Virus record (IMG/VR): IMGVR_UViG_3300006080_000002
Coordinates: 1-55,207 of that record
Length of the DNA stretch: 55,207 nucleotides
From: a virus
Direction: 5' to 3' (one strand)
Made by a program: the position numbers and the translations under genes. The notes under the pieces are model-generated. The model saw only the letters and a program-made list of their open reading frames with translations, was not told where the DNA came from and made no database searches. The stretch's first letter is position 1. The number at the start of each line of letters is the position of its first letter. This document shows, piece by piece, positions 40,344 through 55,207 of the stretch.

Positions 40344-42758
40344 GTGAGAGACGTTTTATGGGAACGTCTGCCGCTGGAAATGAGGGAACGTAACCAATGG
40401 TGCGTTGCAGGCCCGGACAAAGCCCCTCAGATTTTAGGTAACTCAGGTTTACACAATGCCAGCCCGGTTAAAGGCCCGTGGATGAGCTTTGAGAAAGCCT
40501 GCCAAGTTGCGCGGCAGTACGACGCTGAAATCGGATATGTTTTAACAACAGAAGACGGCATTACGTGCATTGACTTGGATGTTAAGGATTCGACGTCTAA
40601 GAAGCCCAACGGCGAACCTGTGCCGCCAAAAGATTGGACAACAGTAGAAGAGTTGGCGCAGTACCGTGAATGGATACAGTTTTTTGGTAGTTATGCTGAG
40701 CGCAGCGTTTCCGGACGCGGGGTTCACATTTTAGTTAAAGGCGACATTGGGGCTGGTGTTCGACGCGGTGGCGTTGAGCTGTACAGCACAGAGCGCTTTA
40801 TCGTTTGTACTGGCGACACGGTTTCGGACGTGCTTTATAGCGTGCGTGACAATGTGGTTAGGTGCGAACCATTGCACACTGACCCATTCCACCTCGCTGA
40901 TTGCAATGACCAAATCAATATCATGGCTTTTGCATACCGCAGCAGCCAAGGTGTGCAAGGCTCCCGAAGCGACTATGAACTGGTGGAACTTGAGCCGGTT
41001 GAAAGTGATGAAACCATCATGCAGCGTGCCCGGGAAGCGGCCAACAACAGCAAGTTCAGCCAACTGTATGACGGCGACTGGAGCGGCTATAAAAGCCAAT
41101 CCGAAGCGGATTTGTCGCTTATGTCAATGTTCACGTTTTACAGTAAAAGTAACGAGCAATGCCGCAGGCTGTTCCGTTCGTCTGGTCTGGGCAAGCGTGA
41201 AAAGGCTGTTTGTGATAACCGCTATATCGATTTAACGCTGAAGCTTGTGCGCCAGCGCCAGGATCGTGAAGCAGAACGGGCAAAGCAATCCGCTGAGCAG
41301 GCAAAAGAACTTGTCAGCCAGTTGGTTTCCAAAATGAACAGCGAAGCAAGTGCTGCCATTTCTGGCGAAGTGCTGAGCACTGACCGGTCATTACCACAAA
41401 GTGCGTCAGACCTTGGCGACGGCCTGGACTGGCCGCCCGGCGTAGCTGGTGCTATTGCTAAGTTCATTTATCGCAGCGCACCGCGCCCTGCCAAGGAAGT
41501 TGGTATCGTTGCTGCACTGGGTTTGCTGGCCGGTATATGCGGCCGGTCATTCCACATTCCACAGTCGGGCTTAAACCTGTATATCATTCTTGTTGCGCGT
41601 TCCGGCGTAGGCAAGGAAGCGATGCACACAGGTATCAGCTTAATCGTGAATAAGGTAATGGACGGCTGCCCTGTATTTAACAGCTTTATTGACTTTGACG
41701 ATTTTGCATCCGGTCAGTCCTTAACGCGGGTAATTTCCGAAAAGCCTTCCTTTGTAAACGTTGGTAGTGAGTGGGGGCGCAAACTGAAGCGCTTAGCACA
41801 TGACGACGGTAAAGGCGAAGGCCCAATGCAAAGCCTGCGCACAACAATGACAGCGCTATATCAAAAGTCAGGCCCATCATCCATCGTTGGTGGTATTAGC
41901 TATTCGAAAGCGGATAAAAACGTTGCCTCCATTAGTAGTGCCGCTTATAGCATGATTGGCGAAACAACGCCGAGCACGTTTTTTGAGTCCTTAACCGACA
42001 GTATGATGGAAGACGGGTTTTTAAGCCGCTTCTTGATTATTGAATATAACGGTAACAGGCCACCATTAAACGAAACGCCGGTATTGGAGCCGGAACCTGC
42101 CCTTGTAAAAGCGTTGCAGAATATGGCGTTTGTTTCTTCAAAATTAAACGCAATGAATAACAGTAAGCTCGTAGCGTTTGACCCGGACGCTATGGCCCAG
42201 CTAAAGGCATTCGACAAGCGCTGTGATGATGAGATTAACAGCAGCGACGATGAAAGCTGGCGGCAAATGTGGAACCGGGCACACCTGAAGGCGTACCGGA
42301 TAGCTGCGTTGCTTGCGGCTGCGGACAACCCGGAAAAGCCCTGTGCTACTACAGCCCATACGGAATGGGCCTTGATGGTTGTGCAGCGCGATATCAAGCT
42401 TATGACGGCCAGGATGCAAAGCGGGGAAATTGGGCAAGGGACGGACGATAAGCGGGTTCTTAAAATTCTGGAAATTGCAAGCGAAGTATTTAAAAACGGG
42501 TATTCAAAAGGATATAACTTACCCGCGGAATTTGCGCCGAACGGTATATTGGCCAGGAGCTTTTTACAAGTGCGGATATCCCGGATTAAAATGTTTAAGG
42601 AACACCGGGTTGGCACCGGGGCTGCTTTGGATAGCACATTACGATTAATGATTGAAAACGGTTATATTGAAGAAATAAACCGGGATACATTAATCGCGGA
42701 ATATGGCCGGAACTATGGTAAATGTTATCGGGTTATCAACTGGCCGAGCACGTATTAA
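40344..42758 (+). CDS. Primase-helicase (AEP primase domain plus DUF3987-like ATPase)
   Basis: This 804-aa replication enzyme shows the N-terminal archaeo-eukaryotic primase pattern: D77 and D79 (CIDLDV) and SGRGVHI with H128. After a linker, a C-terminal ATPase/helicase of the DUF3987 type begins near residue 355 (YRSAPRPAKEVGIVAALGLLAGI), with a Walker A-like ARSGVGKEAM and a later Walker B-type region. It should make primers and unwind DNA for the phage family B polymerase. It has a ribosome site (AAGGGGAAG) and follows the HTH gene. Confidence 0.82.
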   Translation: MRDVLWERLPLEMRERNQWCVAGPDKAPQILGNSGLHNASPVKGPWMSFEKACQVARQYDAEIGYVLTTEDGITCIDLDVKDSTSKKPNGEPVPPKDWTTVEELAQYREWIQFFGSYAERSVSGRGVHILVKGDIGAGVRRGGVELYSTERFIVCTGDTVSDVLYSVRDNVVRCEPLHTDPFHLADCNDQINIMAFAYRSSQGVQGSRSDYELVELEPVESDETIMQRAREAANNSKFSQLYDGDWSGYKSQSEADLSLMSMFTFYSKSNEQCRRLFRSSGLGKREKAVCDNRYIDLTLKLVRQRQDREAERAKQSAEQAKELVSQLVSKMNSEASAAISGEVLSTDRSLPQSASDLGDGLDWPPGVAGAIAKFIYRSAPRPAKEVGIVAALGLLAGICGRSFHIPQSGLNLYIILVARSGVGKEAMHTGISLIVNKVMDGCPVFNSFIDFDDFASGQSLTRVISEKPSFVNVGSEWGRKLKRLAHDDGKGEGPMQSLRTTMTALYQKSGPSSIVGGISYSKADKNVASISSAAYSMIGETTPSTFFESLTDSMMEDGFLSRFLIIEYNGNRPPLNETPVLEPEPALVKALQNMAFVSSKLNAMNNSKLVAFDPDAMAQLKAFDKRCDDEINSSDDESWRQMWNRAHLKAYRIAALLAAADNPEKPCATTAHTEWALMVVQRDIKLMTARMQSGEIGQGTDDKRVLKILEIASEVFKNGYSKGYNLPAEFAPNGILARSFLQVRISRIKMFKEHRVGTGAALDSTLRLMIENGYIEEINRDTLIAEYGRNYGKCYRVINWPSTY

Positions 42759-42837: not shown

Positions 42838-43290
42838 ATGGCCGAGTTAAACCATAACGCTGATGTAATCACTGTAGAAGAATTGTCCTACTGGGAGAAG
42901 TTGGCGCGTCAGCTTTCGCAAATTAAAACGGAAGAGATTACGCTCCGCAAGCGTATCTTTGAAGTTATGTTCCCGGATGCTGGCGAAGGAACCAACACCC
43001 ACCCTCTGGCCAATGATTACGTGCTGAAAGCAAGCTACCCTTTCACACGTGATATTGACGAAGGTGCATTGGCTGCTATGCAGGATGAACTGAAAGCTGC
43101 CAACGTGCCAATGGACACCCTTGTCAAGTACAAGCCAACCCTGTCGAAAAGCACTTATAACAAACTGACCGAAGAACAGCGCAAGCTTGTTGACCAGTTT
43201 ATTATTTGCCGCCCCGGCAGCCCGGCGCTGGAAATTTCGCTGCCAAAGCGTAAGCCGAACTTTACTTCAACCGGGCATCTGGCCCTGTAA
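42838..43290 (+). CDS. Hypothetical replication-region protein
   Basis: This 150-aa protein has a helical start (ELSYWEKLARQLSQIKTEEITLRKRIFEVMFP) and a KYKPTLSKSTYNKLTEEQRKLVDQFI region. Proteins with this outline occur next to ligase and ATPase genes in other phages, but I cannot name a function. Strong AGGAGGG ribosome site. Its stop overlaps the next start (TAATG). Confidence 0.7.
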   Translation: MAELNHNADVITVEELSYWEKLARQLSQIKTEEITLRKRIFEVMFPDAGEGTNTHPLANDYVLKASYPFTRDIDEGALAAMQDELKAANVPMDTLVKYKPTLSKSTYNKLTEEQRKLVDQFIICRPGSPALEISLPKRKPNFTSTGHLAL

Positions 43291-44867
43291 TGCTGGTCAC
43301 GGTAATGGCCGACGCTTCGTTCTGCGACCGCCTACAGGTGGCAGGATATGGTTATTATGTGGTCAGCGACCGCAAGAAAACCAAGGGCGGCGGCTTTATA
43401 AAAGAACCTGTGTTGACGTCGGTTACCGCTGAATTTATGGCTGTTGCTATGGCAGTGACCAAGGGTATTAACTGCGGTGTAATTGACTACGGTGACGCCT
43501 TAATAATCCAGACGGATTGTACAAGCGTTATTCAAGCATTTAACGGCAAACGAAAGTACCTTAATACACAGGAACGCGAGGCGCTGGAATATCTGGTTGC
43601 CTTGCGTGTTCAACACTGTTTAACTTACACGCTTCGGCATGTAAAAGGTCACACAAACAGACCGGAGCCTAGATATGCCGCTAATAGGTTCTGCGATGAT
43701 AAAGCAAGTAAATATCTGGCAGTAGCCAGAAAGAAAGCGCGGATTAACAAGATTAAAAAGCAACTGGACAAACCCGAGGTAAAAACTATGAGCACCGGAA
43801 CACAAACCACCGAACAACAGTACGTTGCGCAACCTTGGGCGCCCCAAGGCCCACAGGCAGGCCAAGCGCCCGGCTATACGCAGCAACCGCTCCCGCAATC
43901 TGTGCAACCGCAGGCAATGCCGTACGAACAGGCGCCTATGCAACAGGCGCCTATGCAACAGGCGCCTATGCAGCAAACACCAGCTCAACAGGCACCAGCC
44001 GAACAGCCATCAGCACAGCGACGTCACCTTGTACCTGAACAGCAAAAGGTGCGTGATGAAATGTCGCAGGTTGTTCGTATCTTTGCAGCAAGCAACGGCC
44101 AAATCCGCCCGCACTGCATTGTAACCGGCCCATCCGGCAGCGGTAAGTCTCACTTGATTAAAACGCTGGCTGAAGACCACAACCTGCACTTTATCGAAGT
44201 TAACGCAGCCCAGCTGACCAAAGAAGGCACCAGCGGCAACAGCCTGAGCAAATCTCTGGCCCGGTTAACGAACACTGCCGGTCAGCCAACAATTTGTTTT
44301 GTTGACGAATTCGACAAGCTGTTTATTTCTGGTAACAGCAACAGCAGCTTGGCTCACGAAGTTACAAACGGCGTGCAAAACGAATTTCTGAAAGTTCTGG
44401 AAAGTGAAACCACAGAGGTTTTTGGTGATTATGGTAAATATCACAGCATCCCGATTTCCAATGTGCTGTTTATTTTTGCTGGGGCATTCAACGGTGAAGA
44501 AAACTTAACACTGGATCGCCTGCGTGAATTTGGTATTAAAACGGAATTCCTTGGCCGGGCCGGGTTAATTTACAACCTGGAAAAACTGTCCATTAATTCG
44601 ATGGCTGTTGTTCTGCAAAACAGCTCACTGTTGAAGAAATATATGGCGCTGTATGATAACGTCAGCCTGGAAACGGTTATCAACGATATCATGACGGTCG
44701 TTGCCAGCGTACACGATAAGAATACGCTTGGCATTCGTTTACTGGATAATCTTATTAACCAGTATTTCATCAAAGGCGGCCGTTTAAGTGTGGACACTGT
44801 ACGCCAAACAAGCTTCCAAACGAAGCTGTCATTCACTGTTAACGGTTCGGAGGTGGCACATGGTTGA
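43290..44867 (+). CDS. RNase H domain fused to AAA+ ATPase
   Basis: This 525-aa two-domain protein has residues 1-145 as an RNase H fold with D8 (MADAS), E48 (TAEF), D76 (IQTDCTS), H121 (VKGHTN) and D136/D137 (RFCDDKAS), the full catalytic set. Residues 167-250 are a Q/P-rich linker with PMQQA repeats. Residues about 250-525 are an AAA+ ATPase with Walker A GPSGSGKS and Walker B CFVDEFDKLF, resembling ClpX-like or FtsH-like cores. RNase H could remove primers, and the ATPase may act as a remodeller. An internal ATG at 43788 with a good ribosome site could give the ATPase alone. Confidence 0.85.
   Translation: MLVTVMADASFCDRLQVAGYGYYVVSDRKKTKGGGFIKEPVLTSVTAEFMAVAMAVTKGINCGVIDYGDALIIQTDCTSVIQAFNGKRKYLNTQEREALEYLVALRVQHCLTYTLRHVKGHTNRPEPRYAANRFCDDKASKYLAVARKKARINKIKKQLDKPEVKTMSTGTQTTEQQYVAQPWAPQGPQAGQAPGYTQQPLPQSVQPQAMPYEQAPMQQAPMQQAPMQQTPAQQAPAEQPSAQRRHLVPEQQKVRDEMSQVVRIFAASNGQIRPHCIVTGPSGSGKSHLIKTLAEDHNLHFIEVNAAQLTKEGTSGNSLSKSLARLTNTAGQPTICFVDEFDKLFISGNSNSSLAHEVTNGVQNEFLKVLESETTEVFGDYGKYHSIPISNVLFIFAGAFNGEENLTLDRLREFGIKTEFLGRAGLIYNLEKLSINSMAVVLQNSSLLKKYMALYDNVSLETVINDIMTVVASVHDKNTLGIRLLDNLINQYFIKGGRLSVDTVRQTSFQTKLSFTVNGSEVAHG
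43788..44867 (+). CDS. Possible internal product: AAA+ ATPase alone
   Basis: ATG 43788 (MSTGTQTTEQQYV) is in frame with the fused gene and has CGAGGT at ideal spacing (8 bases). It would give a 359-aa protein that lacks the RNase H part. It starts exactly at the border of the two parts, so either two ancestral genes have lost a stop codon or both forms are made by design. Confidence 0.6.
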   Translation: MSTGTQTTEQQYVAQPWAPQGPQAGQAPGYTQQPLPQSVQPQAMPYEQAPMQQAPMQQAPMQQTPAQQAPAEQPSAQRRHLVPEQQKVRDEMSQVVRIFAASNGQIRPHCIVTGPSGSGKSHLIKTLAEDHNLHFIEVNAAQLTKEGTSGNSLSKSLARLTNTAGQPTICFVDEFDKLFISGNSNSSLAHEVTNGVQNEFLKVLESETTEVFGDYGKYHSIPISNVLFIFAGAFNGEENLTLDRLREFGIKTEFLGRAGLIYNLEKLSINSMAVVLQNSSLLKKYMALYDNVSLETVINDIMTVVASVHDKNTLGIRLLDNLINQYFIKGGRLSVDTVRQTSFQTKLSFTVNGSEVAHG

Positions 44868-45807
44868 GTTAAAGCGCCCGATGTTGGCTGAAGCTGCCGA
44901 AGACGATAAGCTGAAATTCCCGCTGTTGGCTTCACCAAAGATTGATGGCGTGCGTGCAACTGTACAGACTGGACGCTTTATTTCGCGCAGTAACAAGCCA
45001 ATCCCGAATGACCACATACAGCGAACTTTGGCCGCTTATGGTGTCGGAGAAAACAACGTCTTTGACGGCTACGACGGTGAATTGGTTTTAGGCGACCCAA
45101 CCGATCCGGATGTGTATAACCGCAGCCAGTCGAACATTATGAGCCATAAGCGTGAATTTGATTTCACCTTTTACGTGTTCGATTTAATTCCGGTTCGCCC
45201 CGGTGTAGATGGCGGCAAAACTTGGCAGCGACAAGAAACGCTGAATATGCACTCAACGTCGCTTACCTTTGCCGGGCGTTTCCCGGACTGGATTAAGGTT
45301 GTCAAGCAAACGCTTATCCACAATAAAGCTGAGCTGGACGCCTATGAAGAAGAGATGCTGAATGAGGGGTTCGAGGGTGTTATTGTTCGCCGTCTGGACG
45401 CCCCGTATAAGCACGGGCGCAGCACTGTGAATCAGGGTTATATGCTCAAAATTAAACGCTTTGTTGACAGTGAAATTAAAATCACCGGCTTTGAGGAGCT
45501 GGAACACAATGTTAACGAAGCGTTTAAAAACGAGCTCGGGCAAACATCCCGGAGTAGCGCAAAGGCTGGTAAAGTTGGCGGCGACACGCTTGGGGCACTG
45601 GTTGGCGTAGATATCAGTAACCTGCCGGGTACAACGGTTCGCCTTGGTACTGGGTTCACTGCTGAAATGCGGCAGTATATCTGGGATAACCGCCAAGCGC
45701 TTCTTGGTGCTGTGGTCACATACAAATACTTCCCGAAAGGTATGGTTGACGGCCCACGGCACCCGGTGTTCAAAGGTTTTCGAGATCCGGCCGATATGGG
45801 GGAATAG
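44860..45807 (+). CDS. ATP-dependent DNA ligase
   Basis: This 315-aa ligase has the adenylation lysine K27 in KIDG, FDGYDGELVLG (motif III), then EGVIVR (motif IV) and LKIKRF (motif V). The C-terminal OB domain ends ITYKYF-like with GPRHPVFKGFRD. A T7-style minimal ligase. Start at 44860 has GGAGGT seven bases ahead, overlapping the previous gene by 8 bases; an earlier ATG at 44788 is poorer. Confidence 0.92.
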   Translation: MVELKRPMLAEAAEDDKLKFPLLASPKIDGVRATVQTGRFISRSNKPIPNDHIQRTLAAYGVGENNVFDGYDGELVLGDPTDPDVYNRSQSNIMSHKREFDFTFYVFDLIPVRPGVDGGKTWQRQETLNMHSTSLTFAGRFPDWIKVVKQTLIHNKAELDAYEEEMLNEGFEGVIVRRLDAPYKHGRSTVNQGYMLKIKRFVDSEIKITGFEELEHNVNEAFKNELGQTSRSSAKAGKVGGDTLGALVGVDISNLPGTTVRLGTGFTAEMRQYIWDNRQALLGAVVTYKYFPKGMVDGPRHPVFKGFRDPADMGE

Positions 45808-46825: not shown

Positions 46826-47662
46826 ATGCAACTGAACTTCAACGCAGCTAACCACGAACCAAACAAGCCACTCGACCCAATCCCTTCGGATTGGTACGAT
46901 GCAATGATTGACGAAAGCGAAATGAAGCCAACCTCTGCGGGTAACGGCCAATATTTGCAACTTCGTTTCAACATCCTGTCCGGCCAGTTTTCGGGCCGCA
47001 AAGTGTTTACACGCCTGAACCTGATTAACCCGAATCAGACTGCTGTGAACATTGCTTACGGTGACCTGTCTGCGATCTGCCGTGCAATCGGCCGTATGCA
47101 AATCCAGGACTCTGCTGAGCTGCATGGCCAGCCGATGAAAATTAAAGTTAAGCTCGTTCCCGCTCGCGGCGATTACGATGCCTCTAACGAAATCAAAGGT
47201 TACGAAAATATCAACGCTCAGGTTGGTACAGGCACGCCTGCCGGTGGTATGGGCGCCAGTGGTATGGCTGCCCCTCAAGGCGGTATGGCTGCCCCTATGG
47301 CTGCCCCTATGGGTCAGCCTGCCGGTATGCAGGCCAATACGCAGCAGGCACCTACGCAGCAGGCACCTATGCAGCAGACTGCACCGCAGGGCGGTATGCA
47401 GGGCGGTATGCCGGGCGGTATGCAGGGCGGTATGCCGGGCGGTATGCCGGGCGGTATGCAGGCCAATACACAGGCGCCTATGCAGCAAACTGCGCCACAG
47501 GGTCAACCGACTGGTATGCAGCAAACTGCGCCTCAGCAGACTGCACCAGCACAGCAGCAGGCACCTCTGCAGCCTTGGCAGCAAGCCACAGCACAGCAGC
47601 AGGCACCAGCACAGCAAGACCCGGCTGCAAACACCGGAACCCCGTCTTGGGTTCAGCAATAA
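46826..47662 (+). CDS. DUF669-like single-stranded DNA-binding protein with low-complexity tail
   Basis: This 278-aa protein has residues 1-130 that fit the OB-like DUF669 fold (WYDAMIDESEMKPTSAGNGQYLQLRFNILSGQFSGRKVFTRLNL). Residues about 135-278 are G, M, Q, P and A rich (GGMQGGMPGGM, QQAPTQQAPMQQ). The end PSWVQQ lacks the acidic DDDIPF tip of bacterial SSB. It pairs with the Sak4-like protein. A terminator follows. Confidence 0.76.
   Translation: MQLNFNAANHEPNKPLDPIPSDWYDAMIDESEMKPTSAGNGQYLQLRFNILSGQFSGRKVFTRLNLINPNQTAVNIAYGDLSAICRAIGRMQIQDSAELHGQPMKIKVKLVPARGDYDASNEIKGYENINAQVGTGTPAGGMGASGMAAPQGGMAAPMAAPMGQPAGMQANTQQAPTQQAPMQQTAPQGGMQGGMPGGMQGGMPGGMPGGMQANTQAPMQQTAPQGQPTGMQQTAPQQTAPAQQQAPLQPWQQATAQQQAPAQQDPAANTGTPSWVQQ
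47342..47640 (+). repeat. Low-complexity coding repeats in SSB-like gene
   Basis: Short units GGCGGTATG(C/CC) and CAGCAGGCACCT are repeated many times, encoding GGM and QQAP runs. Similar QQAP runs occur at 43929-43980 in the RNase H/AAA+ gene, so these genes share a linker style. Confidence 0.75.
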
Positions 47663-48629: not shown

Positions 48630-49226
48630 ATGAACCCATATGATATTCTTGGTGTTTCACCAGAAGCTACCGAAGAAGAAATTCGAAAAGCTTACAAGCG
48701 CAAAGCGCAGCAGTTGCATCCTGACAAAAATGATGCAGTTGATGCTCAGGAAATGTTCAACGAGCTGCAAAAAGCGTATGAAATGCTCGAAAGTGGCAGT
48801 TATGGTAAATACCAACCATTTTTGGATGACGGCATTGATGAAGAAATGATTAATGACGCGGTCACGACGGTCATGACGGAGCTGAGCGTTGCTATACGCG
48901 GAGGCCCAGAGCCATTGCGCCGGGTTGCAGCAAGCCTCCGCGAATCTATCCACGACTGTATGCAAGAAATTGAAAACGCAAAACGGGAAAAAGGTTTAAT
49001 AAAACTTCACATCTCCCGAATGCGCAATTGCGACTTAATTATTGAGCGGCTTGAATTGGTTATGCGGAGTTGTGATAGCACAGTCGAAAGCATGAAACGA
49101 AAGATTTTGCATCTCAAGCTTGCTATAAAAATTGCGGAACATGGTGAATATTTGCGGGAAGACTGGATCAACGGAAATCCCGCCAAGAAACGCGCAATTG
49201 TAAACATTGATTATCAGGGCGGATAA
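48630..49226 (+). CDS. J-domain (DnaJ-like) protein
   Basis: This 198-aa protein has an N-terminal J domain, residues 1-65, with HPD at 30-32 (QLHPDKND) and YDILGVSPEATEEEIRKAYKRKA. The rest is helical (QEIENAKREKGLIKLHISRM, MKRKILHLKLAIKIAEHG) with no zinc finger. It could recruit host DnaK. The start at 48630 is at the domain border, with GGGG ahead. Its stop overlaps the helicase start (TAATG). Confidence 0.88.
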   Translation: MNPYDILGVSPEATEEEIRKAYKRKAQQLHPDKNDAVDAQEMFNELQKAYEMLESGSYGKYQPFLDDGIDEEMINDAVTTVMTELSVAIRGGPEPLRRVAASLRESIHDCMQEIENAKREKGLIKLHISRMRNCDLIIERLELVMRSCDSTVESMKRKILHLKLAIKIAEHGEYLREDWINGNPAKKRAIVNIDYQGG

Positions 49227-54169: not shown

Positions 54170-55207
54170 ATGTGTGCAATCTTTGGATTTCTAAGCGCTG
54201 GGGCTGACCCAGCTTTATCGCGGTTAGCAAACGCCTCAATATCGCTAATTAACCGTGCATCCTGTGAGCGCGGCAGGGACGGTACTGGCTATATTGTCAA
54301 CGGCCATGCCGAGCGCCGTGGACTTTATTTACCATTGTCCGAAGCGAACAATATTATTGGCAATTCCCGTGCGATGCCAACGACAGAATATTACCACACC
54401 AAGCCAAGCGATTTGGATCAGCAACCATACCGGGTTGGCCCGTGGGCTATTGTTCACAATGGAACGATAGCAAACGACGCTGAACTTCGTACTAACTCTC
54501 ATGCCAGCAAAATCGACAGCGCGGCAATTGCCGAAGTATTAGCCAAGGTTTCACACGAAAACCAGTCGAGAACGTTAGCTGAGCAGTTCGAAATGGCAAT
54601 CCGACAGCTTCGTGGTAGCTTCGCTATCCTGGCTGTGCATCGTGACCACCCGAACTTTATTTTTTATGCTTGCAATTATAAACCTATCTGGTACGCCAAA
54701 GACAGTGAGGGCAATGTTCACATTGCAAGCACCAGAAAAATGCTTCGTCACCTTCAGTACGCGGATATGATTGAGCCATACACGTTAGGCTATTTTATCT
54801 CCGGCGTTGGTGGGCCGGTTTTCATTGGCCCACTCCGTGCTGAGCCGAATCGCCGGGCGTTGGTTGTTGCCAGCGGTGGCCTGGACAGCACCGTGGCTGC
54901 AAAAATGTTGCAGTCGCAAGGTTATGAGGTTGAACTTGTCCATTTTGCCTATAACTGCCATGCAGAGCAAAAGGAGCTTAAAGCTGTTGCGGATATTGCA
55001 AAAAGCCTTAACGTGAAAGTCCGCGTATTGGATATGAGCATCTACGGCAATACGGATTCAGCATTGCTCGACGATCGTGGTATCGCTGACGGTGTTGCCG
55101 GTGCAGAATATGCCCATGAATGGGTGCCAGCACGCAATCTTAACCTTCTGGCGCGGGCTGTTGCTATTGCAGAAGCTGAAAACTTTAGTGTTATCGCGCT
55201 CGGCAAT
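54170..55207 (+). CDS. gat-queC: Gat-QueC, amidotransferase-QueC fusion (continues at 1-420)
   Basis: The joined 452-aa protein has two parts. Residues 1-225 form a class II glutamine amidotransferase with the nucleophile C2 (MCAIFG) and HNG at 96-98 (IVHNGTI). Residues 228-439 form QueC with the ATP-pyrophosphatase loop SGGLDST at 235-241 and the four-cysteine zinc site C410/C418/C421/C424. QueC makes preQ0 from 7-carboxy-7-deazaguanine. In Gat-QueC the amidotransferase is believed to supply ammonia that turns preQ0 into the formamidine (G+ base). It lies between queE and queD. Confidence 0.93.
   Translation, partial: MCAIFGFLSAGADPALSRLANASISLINRASCERGRDGTGYIVNGHAERRGLYLPLSEANNIIGNSRAMPTTEYYHTKPSDLDQQPYRVGPWAIVHNGTIANDAELRTNSHASKIDSAAIAEVLAKVSHENQSRTLAEQFEMAIRQLRGSFAILAVHRDHPNFIFYACNYKPIWYAKDSEGNVHIASTRKMLRHLQYADMIEPYTLGYFISGVGGPVFIGPLRAEPNRRALVVASGGLDSTVAAKMLQSQGYEVELVHFAYNCHAEQKELKAVADIAKSLNVKVRVLDMSIYGNTDSALLDDRGIADGVAGAEYAHEWVPARNLNLLARAVAIAEAENFSVIALGN
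55109..55207. repeat. Terminal direct repeat, copy 2
   Basis: Identical to bases 1-99 (see that entry). Removing one copy leaves a 55,108-base circle in which gat-queC is intact. Confidence 0.9.

Follow-up and report, generated by a model that had tools for sequence, protein, structure and literature searches.

A single open reading frame of 525 amino acids, running from 43290 to 44867 (+) without an internal stop, joins an RNase H to an AAA+ ATPase in the 55,207-base IMG/VR record analyzed here (the window). This frame is best explained, with a probability of roughly 0.7, as a lineage-specific stop-loss fusion of two translationally coupled genes, which would give rise to the ATPase alone as well as to an RNase H-ATPase fusion. 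This probability concerns what the sequence is, and the functional alternatives weighed below lie within it, so that their probabilities overlap with it. The features that matter for this reading are the following:

40344-42758: primase-polymerase-like protein, upstream of the DUF7173 gene
42838..43290 (+): DUF7173 gene, with a one-base overlap with the RNase H start (TAATG)
43290..43787 (+): RNase H (type 1) part, residues 1-166, with catalytic D8, E48, D76, H121 and D136
43775..43781 (+): Shine-Dalgarno-like sequence CGAGGTA, which lies within the RNase H frame 6 nt before ATG 43788, -7.2 kcal/mol
43788..44867 (+): AAA+ ATPase gene, 359 amino acids if read from its own ATG, ClpX/HslU clade, without zinc domain
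43788..44030 (+): Q/P-rich N-terminal tail of the ATPase, predicted to be disordered, with a QPWAPQG motif
44860..45807 (+): ATP-dependent DNA ligase, with an 8-nt overlap between its ATG and the AAA+ stop (ATGGTTGA)

The genes of the window match those of Queuovirinae-type siphophages, and alignments to Alteromonas phage R7M and Acinetobacter phage HD01 cover its queuosine-type, DNA polymerase, terminase, portal and tail genes. The surroundings of the fused frame are a replication-recombination cassette of the Queuovirinae type, with a downstream set of ligase, Sak4-like protein, SSB (DUF669), Cas4-type exonuclease, J-domain protein and helicase. Here, the A of the RNase H start codon is also part of the TAA stop of the DUF7173 gene, and the 8-nt overlap of ligase and AAA+ gene has the same length as the RNase H/AAA+ overlap in three relative lineages. 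The cassette is probably read as a run of tightly packed, coupled genes.

That one frame joins an RNase H and an AAA+ ATPase had been claimed in a preliminary description of this DNA, and this is borne out by the profile matches of both parts. The RNase H domain comprises residues 1-160 (PF00075, 27.1 bits against a Pfam cut-off of 25.8; phrog_531, E 5e-23) and the AAA+ domain residues 248-516 (PF00004, E 3e-14; phrog_5534, E 3e-117). Of the catalytic residues listed earlier, D8, E48, D76, H121 and D136 are invariant across 19 aligned phage RNase H sequences, whereas D137 varies and has to be removed from the list. The two parts were modeled separately, and in one alignment of the whole fusion the RNase H rows aligned poorly. 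The AlphaFold model of the RNase H part has a mean pLDDT of 94 and its top fold matches in the PDB are RNase HI proteins (E 1e-9); a query of solved structures by sequence with the RNase H profile gave no match, while the fold search was clear. By catalytic set, profile and predicted fold, the protein belongs to RNase HI. It shares the fold and the D-E-D-H-D set with the type 1 enzymes of E. coli and archaea, but represents a low-identity phage branch (about 20%) and is the only one of these with a C-terminal ATPase fused to it. From family and gene context, its role is presumably the removal of RNA primers.

The ATPase displays a Walker A motif (GPSGSGKS), a Walker B motif (FVDEFDK), an arginine finger (FLGR) and a sensor-2 motif (NTLGIR). 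In the structure model most of the core has a pLDDT above 90, and the closest solved structures are those of ClpX and HslU. The protein thus has the AAA+ module of ClpX, with Walker A and B, arginine finger and sensor 2, and is of the same clade and fold. An identity as ClpX itself was nevertheless rejected, based on three differences. It reaches 82 bits against the cut-off of 359 of the curated ClpX family, it lacks the N-terminal zinc-binding domain, its N-terminal part being Q/P-rich and free of cysteines, and it has GTSG where ClpX has the aromatic pore-1 loop GYVG. Furthermore, the profile match leaves unpaired some 24 residues of ClpX that precede the arginine-finger segment, the stretch of the ClpP-contact loop. 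The label 'Clp protease' found in database records reflects resemblance within the clade and is misleading; the protein is better called a predicted remodeling or motor ATPase. From family and gene context, its role would be to remodel replication complexes.

The ATPase belongs to the family phrog_5534. On two contigs that were placed in Gracilibacteria and Shapirobacteria bins (L157 and L160), the ATPase reading frame carries an unrelated N-terminal extension of about 130 amino acids with a cysteine-rich beginning. This extension is either a further case of a domain added to the N-terminus in this family or the product of a frame that runs on.

The preliminary description had also pointed to the ATG at 43788 as a start that would yield the ATPase alone, and this start is a credible one. 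The predicted pairing of this ATG with the tail of the 16S rRNA is -7.2 kcal/mol, a value attained by six of the 240 ATGs between 40 and 54 kb, ATG 43788 included. It outscores all other in-frame start codons of the reading frame, the nearest being GTG 44790 with -7.1, and other genes of the window have Shine-Dalgarno pairings of similar strength. For the start of the RNase H at 43290, a pairing of merely -2.5 kcal/mol is predicted, and this start is probably reached by coupling from the upstream gene. In relatives, the AAA+ starts show pairings of -5.6 to -9.2 kcal/mol, a range that includes the value of the window, and CGAGGTA is placed, relative to the start, just as the ribosome-binding sites of their AAA+ genes are. 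ATG 43788 stands well beyond chance because it is homologous to the start of the AAA+ gene in these relatives. Its position and homology mark it as the ancestral start of the AAA+ gene. The reading of this codon as a start built into a fused gene has to be given up: in all five relatives with an adjacent pair, the AAA+ gene overlaps the RNase H gene, and the codon is simply the normal start of this AAA+ gene.

These relatives differ from the window in the layout of the two genes. RNase H and AAA+ gene are adjacent in five other lineages (HD01, R7M, L009, L053/L055 and L051) and are separate genes in each of them, so that the fused layout was found in 0/5 of the other adjacent pairs. The overlaps amount to 17 nt in HD01, 11 nt in R7M and 8 nt each in L009, L053/L055 and L051. 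The AAA+ ATG follows a good ribosome-binding site and lies in the +1 frame relative to the RNase H in all five, whereas the offset in the window is 0 and no stop is left. In R7M and HD01, where the ATPase bears the 'Clp protease' label, the same two genes occur in the same order and among similar neighbors, with primase and DNA-binding protein upstream and ligase, Sak4 and SSB downstream; ThyX directly follows the ATPase there, in place of the ligase of the window. In both phages the AAA+ gene, preceded by a ribosome-binding site, starts within the last stretch of the RNase H gene, and the RNase H stops in another frame 11 or 17 nt past the first base of this start, while no such stop is present in the window.

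Among all loci fetched, the fused frame is that of the window only, one of 101 distinct ATPases and one of 62 distinct RNases H. Protein, alignment and DNA-pattern queries of viral contigs as well as of genome contigs, phages and plasmids revealed no close relative that carries such a fusion. The majority of the relatives carry just one gene of the pair. In NP1, 9g and L061 the RNase H stands without the ATPase and is followed by ThyX or ligase, and the ATPase without an adjoining RNase H is found in VpKK5-like, N4-like and T5-like phages. Since each gene occurs alone, the ATPase gene is a separable insert in the cassette and the fusion a local event at the left border of this insert. The fusion is a one-off variant in one genome or sample and not a new system.

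The Q/P-rich stretch, previously described as a linker between the domains, lies after the start at 43788 and is the ATPase's own N-terminus. The first approximately 80 residues of the ATPase are disordered in the structure model. VpKK5-like phages possess an N-tailed ATPase without any RNase H attached, and a comparable tail is present in the ATPases of VpKK5 and 033B (VpKK5: MQPNDAPWLKQG...). The tail is probably older than the fusion.

Mechanistically, a net frame change at the RNase H/AAA+ overlap would have removed the RNase H stop and thereby fused the genes, while the ATPase gene would have kept its own start codon and ribosome-binding site. Ribosomes entering at the RNase H, probably coupled from the DUF7173 stop (TAATG), would synthesize the 525-aa fusion, and other ribosomes would start at 43788 and synthesize the 359-aa ATPase. 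By analogy with known ring ATPases, we infer that both products are made and assemble into mixed rings. The RNase H would then be present only as a domain tethered via the flexible Q/P tail to some subunits of such a ring.

Dual products from one frame are known for the gene 4 of phage T7, which encodes proteins of 63 and 56 kDa. In all the precedents considered, an internal start is used, as predicted for the window, and the short form keeps the ring ATPase. The long and short forms of McrB (PMC12707154) and the full-length and short forms of ClpB (PMC6168691) are further cases of two products of one frame. The short forms of McrB and ClpB lack the N-terminal domain, and that of T7 gene 4 lacks part of it. 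The window shares the feature that is typical for these genes, an in-frame start with a ribosome-binding site at a domain border. Dual products have been demonstrated for McrB, ClpB and T7 gene 4, whereas for the window they are predicted, and none of the three has an RNase H as its N-terminal domain. As for the novelty claimed earlier, dual products of an AAA+ or ring ATPase are known in kind. A search of the open literature found no RNase H-AAA+ fusion, and the main text of the R7M paper mentions neither the RNase H nor the ATPase.

A single spurious base near the junction, introduced by sequencing or assembly, would mimic the fusion, and the true genome would then contain two overlapping or abutting genes. 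This follows from the observation that each of the 47 single-base deletions from 43742 to 43788 ends the RNase H gene at a stop codon that lies shortly before the ATG or shares bases with it (ATGA), which is the normal layout of a phage gene pair. Runs of five A are located close to the junction, and every relative is split. Nevertheless, such an error is considered unlikely. The other conserved genes that were compared with those of R7M and HD01, which span most of the genome, show no frame break, the sole split gene being QueC at the ends of the record. Furthermore, the RNase H tails of the window (RINKIKKQLD) and of L051 (RINKIKEFLND) remain aligned across the junction; due to this homology the frame is right until about 10 codons before ATG 43788, which limits the site at which an error could lie (KIKKQLD/KIKEFLND).

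If the stop-loss fusion is accepted, it might still be functionally trivial, with a stop lost by drift, an ATPase still translated from the old start codon, and an RNase H that works as such and carries a harmless C-terminal passenger. The chances of this are a little short of even. It is in line with the RNase H of NP1, 9g and most other relatives, which has no ATPase with it, with the ATPase being found without RNase H in N4-like, T5-like and VpKK5-like phages, and with the retained ribosome-binding site of the free ATPase. Nothing specific argues against it, and it differs from the stop-loss fusion as outlined above only in whether the tethering matters; the default view is that the tethering leaves the work of the RNase H unchanged. 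The preliminary description had instead proposed a dedicated dual-product machine, which couples primer removal to an ATP-driven remodeler at the fork. The replication cassette, the intact catalytic residues in both parts and the precedents of dual-product ring ATPases would fit to this proposal. However, the fusion is conserved in no relative, the relatives mostly carry one gene only, the internal start and probably also the tail are older than the fusion, and the ATPase family is widespread without RNase H, which makes such a machine quite improbable. Should the fusion be used at all, which is doubtful, the RNase H would be a flexible arm on part of the ring subunits; the ring would deliver primer removal to SSB-coated or fork DNA, and the free ATPase subunits would set the dose. 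Delivery to such DNA is proposed because a QPW motif is common to the tail of the ATPase and the phage SSB.

If the stop-loss fusion is confirmed by reads, it would represent a snapshot of overlapping, coupled phage genes becoming a multidomain protein, in which the old start is kept and two products result. It also points to phrog_5534, a widespread family of phage ATPases that is often labeled 'Clp protease' and whose member described here adjoins primase, RNase H, SSB and Sak4 and has neither zinc domain nor aromatic pore loop. The fusion weakly suggests that the ATPase of this family acts at RNA:DNA or primer sites.

Short tryptophan motifs recur within the cassette. The QPWAPQG in the N-terminal tail of the ATPase resembles motifs of phage SSB tails, APWLKQG is found in the ATPase N-tails of VpKK5 and 033B (the tails of L004 and L006), and a similar motif, SSIPPWAEQE, is carried by the C-terminal tail of the RNase H of L074. 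The SSB (DUF669) of the window, at 46826-47662 beside Sak4, has a Q/P-rich C-terminal tail. All 32 complete distinct SSB homologs contain P-[PSA]-W within their last 16 residues, often with internal QPWxQ repeats, compared with a mean of 0.9 of 32 and a maximum of 5 in 500 shuffles of the tails. The SSB of HK620 ends with NDYPPF, which is required for Sak4 (PMC5928155). By analogy, the PPW in the SSBs of the present phages may be the counterpart of this ending, and a short motif of this kind is perhaps common to proteins of the replication cassette.

The J-domain (DnaJ) protein (PF00226, E 3.5e-20) is encoded at 48630-49223, flanked by the genes of the Cas4-type exonuclease and the helicase, and R7M has a J-domain protein at the matching place. 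The QueC-type gene is split over the ends of the record (54170-55207 and 1-390), so the record probably represents a circularly permuted genome that is complete or nearly so. A small open reading frame at 30201-30629 matches a phrog whose members are PagP-like proteins of lipid A acylation.
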